DNA of 7,736 nt, from NCBI GenBank assembly GCA_900299205.1, contig OMIW01000122.1, positions 1 to 7,736 on the forward strand, in the 5' to 3' direction. The notes beneath the pieces are model-generated. The model searched no databases, was not told where the DNA came from, and saw nothing but the letters and a program-made list of their open reading frames with translations. Source of the DNA: Pseudomonadota bacterium. Lineage in GTDB: Bacteria > Bdellovibrionota_C > UBA2361 > OMIW01. This document shows positions 2,991 through 7,528 of the stretch, piece after piece. Numbering within the stretch: position 1 is the stretch's first letter; each line of letters starts with the position of its first letter. The translations under genes were made by a program, and so were the position numbers.

Positions 2991-3590
2991 TCACCCCTCT
3001 GACGCTCGGATGGAGTTCAGAGCGATCTGATGAACGCGTGGGTCGGACAATAGCCACCCATGGCCGAGGTTCAGCACGGAACAGTTGTCAACAGCATGTG
3101 GCAAGCAAGAGCTCGTGCTGGGTATGATCATGAGATCCATCGGAGTCCGAATGGTGGTACAAGGTACTCCCCTGAGTTGGTCTTGCGTGCGCTGCATCTC
3201 TCGGATGAAGGGGCTATTGGGTCGCATATCACGAGCACCGGGGGCCCCAGAGAGGTAAGCTACTGCTGTTCCGTTGAGTGGACCAGCAATATTTACATAG
3301 CTGCGGACTGTGGATGCCTTTCGGTACAACTGAATGTAGGCAGCAGCGATGAGACCACCCATGCTCATTCCAACCAAGTGAACATGATCGTACTGAAGTG
3401 AGGCGACCCAAAAAACGAACTGAGCCACCAATTCGGGCAGAGGGACGCTCAAATCGTTGGTGTAGGCCCACTGCTTTACAACGAAGCCCTCCTCTTCACA
3501 TGCATGCTGCAAGGGAAGTAGGTTTTTTGGTTTGTCGTTGGTGCCCGGGATGAGAATTACTGGTGAGTGTCCACCTGTGACCCTGGACAT
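2991..3590 (-). CDS. alpha/beta-hydrolase, lipase-like
   Basis: The best start is the ATG at 3590, since AGAAGG lies five bases upstream, giving 199 aa. An ATG at 3623 would give 210 aa but has no clear Shine-Dalgarno sequence, and an in-frame TGA lies only two codons before it. From the 3590 start, PVILIPGT near residues 10-17 is the first core strand plus oxyanion loop. HLVGMSMGGLIAA holds the nucleophile elbow G-M-S-M-G with Ser76. D152 (TPMDLMI) and H177 (LGHGWLL) fit the rest of the triad. The length is close to small class-2 lipases of the Bacillus LipA type. These enzymes hydrolyse acyl esters. Unlike typical secreted lipases, no signal peptide is visible from either start, so a cytoplasmic esterase role or a damaged 5' end are both possible. 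The substrate cannot be told from sequence. The gene stands alone, divergent from katG. Confidence 0.82.
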   Translation of the reverse strand: MSRVTGGHSPVILIPGTNDKPKNLLPLQHACEEEGFVVKQWAYTNDLSVPLPELVAQFVFWVASLQYDHVHLVGMSMGGLIAAAYIQLYRKASTVRSYVNIAGPLNGTAVAYLSGAPGARDMRPNSPFIREMQRTQDQLRGVPCTTIRTPMDLMIIPSTSSCLPHAVDNCSVLNLGHGWLLSDPRVHQIALNSIRASEG

Positions 3591-3815
3591 AAAAACCTTC
3601 TGAGTAATGCCGGACAATACCATACCGGCTCAGGTCATCCAACTGAGTGCTCGGGTACTCATAAGGCATTATCGAAGCTCGAGGGCTCAAAGCTCGGTTG
3701 TGTTGCCGGGGGCCCCAAGATGTTGTGTGTATCCCTCGTTCGACTTTCGCGGAGTTCGTGATATTTTCCTCTTTTGAAGTTTGGTTTAGTGTGGCCAGAT
3801 ATGAGGCTCGGGGCG

Positions 3816-3841: not shown

Positions 3842-6105
<2,264 letters not shown>

Positions 6106-6446: not shown

Positions 6447-6728
6447 ATGGGATACCTCTATATTTTGAAAAGCTTGGGTCAGCCGTTCCAAATGTATGTC
6501 GGTGTCACTGGCGATGTAGATCGCAGAATTGGCGACCACAATAGCGGTAGATGTTCTCATACTGTCAAGTTCATGCCGTGGCAAATCGTTTATACCGAGC
6601 CGTTTGATAATGGAGTTGAGGCCTCAAACCGGGAGCAGCAGATAAAGGGATGGACGAGGGCGAAGAAGGAGGCGTTGATTGCGGGAGATGTGGAGGGGTT
6701 GAAGGGTCTGGCGAGGAGGAGGGTTTGA
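6447..6728 (+). CDS. stand-alone GIY-YIG nuclease-domain protein
   Basis: A 93-aa single-domain protein. The family signature is seen as YLY at residues 3-5 (for GIY) and YVG at 17-19 (for YIG). DVDRRIGDHN follows with the catalytic Arg, most likely R27, and H31-N32. SNREQQIKGWTRAKKEALI carries E63 as the metal-binding Glu, with conserved K67 and W69. All catalytic positions of the fold are kept, so it could be active. Small proteins of this YhbQ/UPF0213-like type are known as putative DNA nucleases, and their cellular role is mostly unknown. The C-terminus (GLARRRV) is basic. The start is supported only by GAGG one base upstream, too close for a good Shine-Dalgarno, so expression may be low. 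The gene runs towards a cluster of palindromic repeats beginning about 45 bases after its stop codon, and is convergent with ssrA. Confidence 0.88.
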   Translation: MGYLYILKSLGQPFQMYVGVTGDVDRRIGDHNSGRCSHTVKFMPWQIVYTEPFDNGVEASNREQQIKGWTRAKKEALIAGDVEGLKGLARRRV

Positions 6729-6775
6729 CGGAGGATGATGTGGGGGGAATCGGATGGTGGGGGAGACCCTGGGAG

Positions 6776-6824
6776 TCGCCTAGGAACGGCTTGCCAAGGG
6801 CGAGGGCCTCTGATCCGAATCGAA
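6776..6824 (+). repeat. repeat unit X, copy A
   Basis: Begins TCGCCT and ends TCGAA. It aligns with copy B at 6955-7008. Over the 43 bases that follow TCGCCT (ignoring a 5-base insertion in B), 35 are identical. The shared core GGCTTGCC forms a small hairpin. The outer stem pairing seen in copy B is lost here, so this looks like a degenerate copy. Confidence 0.7.
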
Positions 6825-6835
6825 GCCGAGAGGGG

Positions 6836-6859
6836 CCCTTCGACTCGCTTTCGCTCGCT
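6836..6859 (+). repeat. repeat unit Y, copy 1
   Basis: A 24-base sequence beginning CCCTTCGACTCG, identical to 6921-6944. It lacks the closing AGGGTCC arm that makes the second copy a hairpin. A partial third copy, TTCGACTCGCTC, follows at 6863-6874. Confidence 0.75.
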
Positions 6860-6875
6860 TGGTTCGACTCGCTCA

Positions 6876-6893
6876 CCACTAGCGCCACTAGCA
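6876..6893 (+). repeat. two tandem 9-mers CCACTAGCG/A
   Basis: CCACTAGCG is followed directly by CCACTAGCA, and the next bases (TCACTGGGC) resemble a third, diverged unit. It lies between the two Y copies. Confidence 0.5.
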
Positions 6894-6917
6894 TCACTGG
6901 GCCTGTAGGCGCTTGGG

Positions 6918-6952
6918 GGACCCTTCGACTCGCTTTCGCTCGCTCAGGGTCC
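6918..6952. repeat. repeat unit Y, copy 2, as a closed hairpin
   Basis: GGACCCT (6918-6924) and AGGGTCC (6946-6952) are perfect 7-bp inverted arms around a 21-base loop that carries the rest of unit Y (6921-6944). This is the complete form of the element whose first copy is open. Confidence 0.75.
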
Positions 6953-7011
6953 ATTCGCCTCGGGGAGGAATGGCTTGCCATGAGAGAGGGCCTTTGGCCC
7001 GAGTCGAATGG
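6951..7011. repeat. unit X copy B, imperfect palindrome with inner hairpins
   Basis: The outer arms 6951-6962 and 7000-7011 pair over 12 positions with one mismatch (CCATTCG and CGAATGG, then CTCG and CGAG). Inside are two hairpins: ATGGC-TT-GCCAT (6970-6981) and GGCC-TTT-GGCC (6989-6999). The whole would fold as a three-way junction. It shares its first two bases with the preceding Y hairpin. Confidence 0.7.
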
Positions 7012-7036
7012 AGGTGGATTACGAAGTTTCGAACCA

Positions 7037-7063
7037 CGTCGGAGGAGGCCGGTCAGGCCGACG
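7037..7063. repeat. hairpin CGTCGG / CCGACG
   Basis: Perfect 6-bp inverted arms (7037-7042 and 7058-7063). An alternative pairing uses GGCC-N5-GGCC inside the same stretch. Part of the hairpin cluster. Confidence 0.5.
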
Positions 7064-7068
7064 GGTGT

Positions 7069-7084
7069 CCAGCGACATCGCTGG
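7069..7084. repeat. hairpin CCAGCGA-CA-TCGCTGG
   Basis: Perfect 7-bp inverted arms with a 2-base centre, part of the same cluster. Confidence 0.6.
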
Positions 7085-7090
7085 CCGTTC

Positions 7091-7120
7091 ATTCGAATCT
7101 TGGCGTAGCCAAGTTCGAAT
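7091..7120. repeat. long hairpin just downstream of ssrA 3' end
   Basis: ATTCGAATCTTGGC (7091-7104) and GCCAAGTTCGAAT (7108-7120) pair over 13 positions with one bulged base and a 3-base loop. On the ssrA strand it starts 11 bases after the mature 3' end. The T-run (GTTTTT) lies before the stem, not after it, so it is not a standard terminator. It could stall processing exonucleases or be another member of the repeat cluster. Confidence 0.65.
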
Positions 7121-7131
7121 AGGGGAAAAAC

Positions 7132-7528
7132 TGGAGGTGAGGGGAATCGAACCCCTGTCCGAGAAACCTTGGTCGAAGCTTTCTACACGTTTAGCCGTTC
7201 TTTTAATTTAGCACCCACCGCTCCGAAGGGCAGGATCGGGAGGTGCGAGGCTCTTTGGTTTAACTCAAGGAGGCGAGCCGTCCCCTTTGAGCGATCTTGT
7301 GTTAGTGAGGCCCGGGACGACGTACAAGCATCACCGTCACGAACCGAAGCTGACCCTTGTGGGGTAGGCTTCTTGTGCTCTACCTTTCTTTAGCGATTAG
7401 GCTACAGCGTAGGCAGGAGCGAAGTCATCAGCGTTTGCAGATGTTTTTACCGCTTTTTTACCAGGCCAGCGGACCCTGGACGTGCTTACAACAACCGCGA
7501 AGAATCCCGTCGAAACCGGGACACCCCC
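7132..7528 (-). ncRNA. ssrA: transfer-messenger RNA (tmRNA)
   Basis: A 397-nt one-piece tmRNA, which frees stalled ribosomes with SmpB by acting first as an alanyl-tRNA and then as a short mRNA. The 5' end GGGGGUG (7522-7528) pairs with the 3' CACCUCC (7133-7139); the third pair is G-U, the identity mark read by alanyl-tRNA synthetase. The conserved 5' segment GGUUUCGACGGGA follows. The T arm AGGGG-UUCGAUU-CCCCU lies at 7140-7156. Pseudoknot PK1 is visible at 7450-7479: CCAGG pairs with CCTGG, and CCGCT with AGCGG. The tag frame is at 7397-7438. After the discriminator A at 7132 the next transcribed bases are GUUUUU, so the CCA end is not encoded and must be added after transcription. The gene is convergent with the GIY-YIG gene and divergent from the secreted-protein gene. 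Confidence 0.97.
7397..7438 (-). other. tmRNA proteolysis-tag reading frame
   Basis: The resume codon is GCA at 7436-7438 in the context ACATCT-GCA-AACGCT, and the stop is TAA at 7397-7399. The encoded tag is ANADDFAPAYAVA, 13 residues. The C-terminal AVA replaces the LAA end that ClpXP and other proteases read in most bacteria. The APAY core is reminiscent of epsilon-type tags. Confidence 0.9.

Follow-up and report, generated by a model that had tools for sequence, protein, structure and literature searches.

Why does an intact gene for a very small GIY-YIG nuclease lie beside a cluster of palindromes in a bacterium of the Bdellovibrionota_C lineage? The stretch of DNA analyzed here, referred to as the window, is the 7,736-nucleotide (nt) contig OMIW01000122.1, contig 122 of a 2.45-Mb genome assembled in 206 contigs that is 89.75% complete. 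In other bacteria, repetitive extragenic palindromes (REPs) are linked to REP-associated tyrosine transposases (RAYTs, TnpA-REP) that act on their hairpins, and an earlier note on this locus had suggested that its GIY-YIG protein might form a similar system with the adjacent repeats. The hunch was in the right direction, and the intact gene followed by two repeat families that the note described was confirmed by our analyses (Table 1). Judging from the sequence, the target of the group of nucleases to which the protein belongs, and its main partner at this locus, appears to be the end of a transfer-messenger RNA (tmRNA) or tRNA gene. We consider it probable that the gene is a minimal homing-type mobile gene of tRNA and tmRNA genes, at which short palindromes insert as well.

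The open reading frame (ORF) of the GIY-YIG gene, which encodes 93 amino acids (aa), was intact. All eight invariant columns (Y, G, R, H, N, T and E among them) of a 22-row alignment, A1, were conserved in its product, which was 24–66% identical to the other rows and had the domain with conserved Tyr, Arg and Glu that characterizes the GIY-YIG superfamily. The profile of these 22 proteins was run over 384 genomes and the surroundings of the matches were read with ARAGORN. The 81 matches that scored at least 66 and had adequate flanks are referred to as the T clade, whose members would be small, free-standing bacterial nucleases of approximately 80–95 aa. A tRNA or tmRNA 3' end was present within 350 bp of 59 of these 81 genes, compared with 2 of 25 lower-scoring GIY-YIG genes (p 6e-9). 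A1 had been assembled with the tRNA linkage already in view, so the test was rerun without the A1 rows, and the linkage persisted (43/62 versus 2/25, p 1e-7). In the UPF0213-like clade of GIY-YIG proteins sampled, which separates from the T clade by profile score, none of 68 genes was near a tRNA end. These comparisons showed that the linkage to tRNA ends is specific to the T clade.

Beyond 400 nt from the T-clade genes tRNA ends became sharply rarer, and the divergent arrangement was nearly absent. The targets included tmRNA and the tRNAs for Ala, Ser, Pro, His, Glu, Asn and Asp, among others. On the T-clade protein tree, which had few columns and many open forks, tRNA identity was clustered yet switched often (47 changes versus a shuffled mean of 57.9, with 0 of 200 shuffles as low). 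As with free-standing homing endonuclease genes, the T-clade genes stood at or next to a conserved gene that would stay functional, an intact predicted tRNA being found together with a partial copy, and the tRNA gene is the putative target of cleavage by the T-clade protein.

Analyses of the far side of the gene identified such partial copies. Using the whole tRNA and matched geometry, a far-side partial copy of the same tRNA was found at 21 of 60 tRNA-linked T-clade loci, versus 2 of 123 matched control flanks (p 6e-10), and these copies occurred in both codirectional arrangements. Where the tRNA preceded the gene, nine loci had a copy of the tRNA 3' part shortly past the ORF, 13–53 nt in length and mostly 100% identical, e.g., L224 (Leu, 53 nt), L265 (Asn, 39 nt) and L282 (Asn, 30 nt; L and G numbers are our designations for loci and genomes). 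Where the gene preceded the tRNA, a copy of the tRNA 5' part was often located upstream of the gene, e.g., in L220 (Gln, 55 nt) and L015 (Asp, 66 nt). The units bracketed by a tRNA copy were approximately 330–390 bp and contained one gene, that of the GIY-YIG protein. In L224, L225, L265, L272 and L282 the far-side tRNA copy was partly near-whole, with arms swapped for, or broken by, unrelated hairpins, and it lay near the point where the GIY-YIG domain ends.

In the window, the repeat cluster ran up to the very 3' end of ssrA, the tmRNA gene, a boundary that had gone unnoticed in the earlier note. The order outward from the tmRNA was element A, a C-type palindrome, P palindromes, older decayed copies and the GIY-YIG gene, with a spacer separating the P palindrome (6952–6918) from its second copy (6859–6832). 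The sequence TGGAGGTG at the tmRNA end (7132–7139) recurred at 7009–7016, and both ends of element A were bounded by its reverse-strand form, CACCTCCA (7139–7132 at the tmRNA end; second copy 7016–7009). The CCA with which the C-type palindrome begins (TGG on the forward strand) is shared with the end of the tmRNA-like repeat at 7009–7016. Element A probably represents a later, and the youngest, insertion with an 8-bp duplication, because in two genomes of the same class (G014 and G032, loci L169 and L185) the C-type unit directly abuts the CCA of the real tmRNA, with the GIY-YIG gene next. Genomes G002 (L179) and G020 (L193) had relatives of element A at their tmRNA 3' ends, likewise closed by CACCTCCA.

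The hairpins were folded as DNA and compared with 200 dinucleotide shuffles. The fold of 7012–7131 was strong (z -4.75, 0/200 shuffles as good), those of 6915–6955 (z -2.6) and 6953–7014 (z -2.2) were moderate, and 6760–6840 and 6836–6915 folded no better than chance. The previous count of five hairpins was therefore somewhat generous. A possible decayed copy of the tmRNA end at 6737–6752 scored 22, where the null mean was 16, and did not reach the threshold of 26 that was used.

Table 1. Features of the tmRNA-end cluster in the window, in forward-strand coordinates
Feature	Position	Strand	Remarks
GIY-YIG nuclease ORF, member of the T clade (tRNA-end-linked)	6447–6728	+	93 aa; Pfam PF01541, E 1.9e-13
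Possible decayed tmRNA 3' end copy CGATTCCCCCCACATC, weak	6737–6752	-	88% direct repeat with 7134–7149
Second C-type unit copy, decayed	6782–6824	-	81% identical to 6966–7008; folds no better than shuffles
Second P copy, GAGCGAGCGAAAGCGAGTCGAAGGG palindrome	6832–6859	-	96% identical to 6917–6944
P palindrome GGACCCTGAGCGAGCGAAAGCGAGTCGAAGGGTCC	6918–6952	-	DNA fold z -2.59 for 6915–6955
Second hairpin arm pair CCATTC...GAATGG of the C-type unit	6951–6973	-	From sequence; similar layout in L169
C-type palindrome CCA-TTCGACTCG-GGCC-AAA-GGCC-CTCTCTCA-TGG	6978–7011	-	Followed by CAAG and a second CCA
8-bp repeat of the tmRNA 3' end CACCTCCA	7009–7016	-	Identical to 7132–7139; read as a target-site duplication
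Element A, ~115 bp, non-coding, three hairpins	7017–7131	-	Between the tmRNA and the older palindromes; DNA fold z -4.75
ssrA (tmRNA), tag ANADDFAPAYAVA	7132–7528	-	ARAGORN; Rfam RF00023, E 5.9e-68; 3' end read as the insertion site

The earlier note had proposed comparing this locus with those of relatives, and within the window's class the tmRNA loci did vary as an invaded site might. The same site was free of such elements in L168, L170, L173 and L175; had a palindrome and no GIY-YIG gene on the retrieved stretch in L165 (shortened by a contig end), L166 and L186; and had palindromes together with a GIY-YIG gene in L169, L171, L176, L178, L184, L185, L191 and the window. Presence was patchy, with any match at E 1e-5 in 16 of the 45 class genomes, and decayed GIY-YIG copies with internal stop codons also existed in the class, as expected of a cycle of gain and decay. 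Other non-coding units were observed at tmRNA 3' ends. Those in L187, L189 and L190, from genomes of family f11, were approximately 90 bp, some in tandem, and each ended with GGTTCGAAT..TAT and a tmRNA-like CCACCTCCA or tRNA-Ala-like GGGTCCACCA end. Those in L167 and L172 were closed by an extra copy of the tmRNA terminus, CCACCTCCACCA, and had no GIY-YIG gene.

The C-type unit has the form CCA-NN-CTTCGC..GCTACG-N'N'-TGG-CARG-CCA, or a TTCGACTC..GCTCA variant, and in several lineages was seen directly after the genes for tmRNA and for tRNA-Ala (L007 and L242), Glu, SeC and Leu. In the CTTCGC form the two bases after the CCA varied (GC, CA, TA, GA, TT or TG) and kept their complementarity to those before the TGG. 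The motif TGGC[ACG][AG]GCC was present within 90 nt of the 3' end of 15 of 58 tRNAs and tmRNAs that had a T-clade gene within 600 nt downstream, compared with 5 of 128 others (p 2.5e-5). Together with the occurrence of the same palindromes at related GIY-YIG genes in the class, this supported the earlier note in that the proximity of gene and repeats is not due to chance. A simpler test with 6-mer CCA arms found no difference (6/31 versus 15/77); its controls mistakenly contained loci that belonged to these GIY-YIG genes as well. The unanchored pattern CTTCGCN{2,40}GCTACGNNTGGCARGCC occurred at nine places in 258 genomes, with at most two copies per genome, and its reversed control at none. 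The C-type palindrome is an element specific to tRNA ends, not a dispersed REP, because seven of these nine places began 1–7 nt past a tRNA or tmRNA 3' end, in several families and unrelated lineages; the remaining two followed CCTCCA and CATCCA. A GIY-YIG gene was on the retrieved stretch at two of the nine. Contig stretches with variants of the P palindrome (TTCGACTCGCT-N-TCGCTCGCTCAGG) numbered at least 120 (L033–L152) and came from many phyla, with isolates such as Sediminibacterium magnilacihabitans and Adlercreutzia sp. among their sources; a GIY-YIG gene lay within 300 bp of the palindrome in 5 of the 120 stretches listed. Hairpins in general were enriched near T-clade genes by z-score; these are possibly tRNA terminators and so were not used as evidence of a link to the nuclease.

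The palindromes were in register with the CCA of the tRNA, partial tRNA copies bracketed the gene at other loci, and a short terminal repeat was present in the window. In the mechanism that we propose, the enzyme would cut its target tRNA or tmRNA gene between the T-arm and the acceptor end, as predicted by analogy with SegB. Repair or copying would then yield an intact tRNA and the GIY-YIG gene, and at many loci a partial tRNA would persist as a remnant on the far side. The short palindromes, in which the CCA of the tRNA itself opens the outer arm and TGGCARGCCA comes next, would be non-coding elements using the same insertion site. It is plausible that the T-clade nuclease cuts or moves these palindromes. 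We infer the nuclease activity itself, the cut site, mobility by homing and the service of one nuclease to both gene and palindromes. SegB of phage T6 is a free-standing GIY-YIG homing endonuclease encoded beside a tRNA array that cuts inside tRNA genes at the motif RAWTSGAAC (2026; PMC13096335). The complement of this motif, GTTCSAWTY, matches the tRNA T-loop, and element A has T-loop-like motifs (GGTTCGAA, ATTCGAAC and GGTTCGAAA), which we report as an observation, not as proof of cutting.

Several results weigh against this mechanism. Approximately 30% of the T-clade members had no tRNA nearby, and in the convergent arrangement, which is that of the window, 0 of 10 loci had a tRNA copy beyond the gene. 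At its far boundary the window's gene lacked the direct repeat of a tRNA end that was seen at 21 of the 60 related loci, and the window itself showed just the 8-bp CACCTCCA repeat around element A and the weak decayed repeat. When only tRNA tails were matched, duplicates of the tRNA end were marginally more frequent than at control tRNAs (12/56 versus 8/90, p 0.046), and the duplicates near control tRNAs indicated that non-coding elements use tRNA ends too. In addition, SegB is a phage enzyme likened to the T clade by analogy, and most of the genomes surveyed were metagenome assemblies.

The UPF0213-like sister clade was examined with a separate profile, A2, which identified members in 55 of the 384 genomes at 86 bits or more. 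These genes often lay between inverted palindromes, TGTCAT..GAAG..ATC or TGTCATTCCCGCG..GGGAATCC, on both sides. Inverted flanking palindromes with an alignment score of at least 36 were found at 28 of 69 loci and in 0 of 267 shifted windows from the same loci (p 7e-24), and without A2's own rows at 23 of 54 versus 0 of 202. When flanks were paired across different loci, 4.75% of draws reached this score because the palindromes are alike between genomes. Among the 384 genomes, 69 had the palindrome GTCATTGCGAGN{0,30}GAAGCAATC, at copy numbers of up to 426, and its reversed form was never found. Presence of this palindrome (GTCATTGCGAG..GAAGCAATC) tracked that of the UPF0213-like clade (odds ratio 8.9, p 1e-11) more closely than that of Y1/RAYT transposases (odds ratio 3.7), and the effect of the UPF0213-like clade held both with and without Y1; the genomes are not mutually independent, and the p-values therefore overstate the certainty. 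The four searched genomes of the window's class with a high-scoring UPF0213-like member (G003, G007, G015 and G031) were the ones in which the palindrome occurred, and 39 genomes had the palindrome without a detected member. In L196, L029, L285, L050, L028, L162, L027 and others, the complementary arms varied and the arrangement resembled REPs on either side of a RAYT gene, the RAYT itself being absent.

These findings on the sister clade bear on the suggestion of the earlier note that the protein itself recognizes, nicks or cuts, and spreads the palindromes, the tRNA end being one landing site. Such a RAYT-like account is compatible with a homing-type gene, and we regard it as possible, if rather doubtful. 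It gains from the inverted palindromes around UPF0213-like genes, from the tracking of palindrome and gene between genomes, from the co-occurrence of T-clade genes with the CCA-anchored palindrome, and from the absence of any match to the Y1 transposase (PF01797) in the window's genome, where the nuclease is a GIY-YIG protein. Set against these, inverted repeats flanked T-clade genes at only 3 of 79 loci, and the C-type pattern remained at no more than two copies per genome, with seven of its nine places having no GIY-YIG gene on the retrieved stretch. The search for repeats and paralogues that the earlier note had proposed was conducted by pattern and profile searches of the window's genome, and it went against a REP-like population. 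The GIY-YIG gene was present in one copy, the main palindrome (up to three mismatches) occurred nowhere besides its two places in the window, and no palindrome followed any of the other tRNA genes whose 3' flanks were examined in this genome. A genome-wide REP family was therefore rejected, the main palindrome being confined to this locus.

The remaining explanations attribute the association to processes other than the nuclease. Integrases classically use tRNA and tmRNA 3' ends, which as hot spots for tyrosine-recombinase elements could have collected the GIY-YIG gene and palindromes as debris or cargo, an account to which the duplicated tRNA ends without a GIY-YIG gene also lend themselves. 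We consider it unlikely, as the bracketed units measure only some 330–390 bp and hold a single gene, the linkage is confined to one GIY-YIG clade and absent in another, tRNA copies also occur 5' of the gene, and no integrase domain was identified among the five window proteins scanned. Alternatively, the hairpins could be trailers or terminators of the tmRNA or tRNA and the protein a co-located tRNA or repair enzyme of the host. Consistent with this are the conserved complementarity of the arms, which indicates that structure matters, and the hairpin enrichment near T-clade genes. The patchy presence in the class, the stop codons, the location of relatives at different tRNAs, and tmRNA ends that have no such element make a host function a poor candidate. 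The two cluster stretches that fold no better than shuffles would suit repeats merely piling up between convergent genes that are chance neighbors; the significant recurrence among class members and beyond, in other lineages, makes this very improbable. The homing-type mobile gene remains the reading that we favor.

The neighbors adjoining the element were ordinary, namely a katG-like peroxidase gene (3868–6105) and an alpha/beta hydrolase gene (2991–3623), and the minus strand at 835–2574 encodes a 579-aa protein without any Pfam match. No relative was found in a phage collection searched with one query, a relative from G086, and PHROG gave no match. In the open-access literature, excluding preprints and most subscription journals, we found no report of bacterial GIY-YIG proteins at tRNA ends or with REP palindromes. 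We tentatively raise the wider idea, for which the odds seem to us somewhat short of even, that small GIY-YIG nucleases drive two unreported families of bacterial micro-elements. The T clade would invade tRNA and tmRNA genes as units of approximately 0.3–0.4 kb that restore the tRNA and have the CCA-anchored palindromes for non-coding partners. The UPF0213-like clade would mobilize the widespread TGTCAT..GAAG..ATC palindromes as RAYTs do REPs. If true, few protein-coding mobile elements in bacteria would be smaller than these, a common gene family without an assigned function would gain a role, palindromes in many phyla would be easier to explain, and the logic of phage SegB, a GIY-YIG enzyme cutting tRNA genes, would extend to bacterial chromosomes.

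Among known systems, the UPF0213 GIY-YIG proteins of PDB 1zg2 and 1ywl belong to the same domain family as the window protein and are the nearest solved structures by sequence. Tyrosine-recombinase islands and prophages at tRNA and tmRNA 3' ends share the gene target and, as at 21 of the 60 related loci, the far-side partial tRNA copy; unlike them, the T-clade units are approximately 0.3–0.4 kb, have one gene and lack a recombinase. The RAYT/REP systems and bacterial interspersed mosaic elements likewise place a small nuclease gene beside imperfect palindromes, as does the sister clade with its inverted flanks, but the nuclease here is of the GIY-YIG type instead of HUH/Y1, and the window's repeats are confined to one tmRNA end. 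SegB of phages T4 and T6 (PMC13096335) is likewise a GIY-YIG nuclease encoded beside tRNA genes, and the T-loop-matching motif at which it cuts has its counterpart in the T-loop-like motifs of element A. In contrast to SegB and its tRNA array, the T-clade genes are chromosomal and bacterial, encode little more than the catalytic domain, and stand at single tRNA or tmRNA sites, which they would cut, in the company of palindromic elements and partial tRNA copies.
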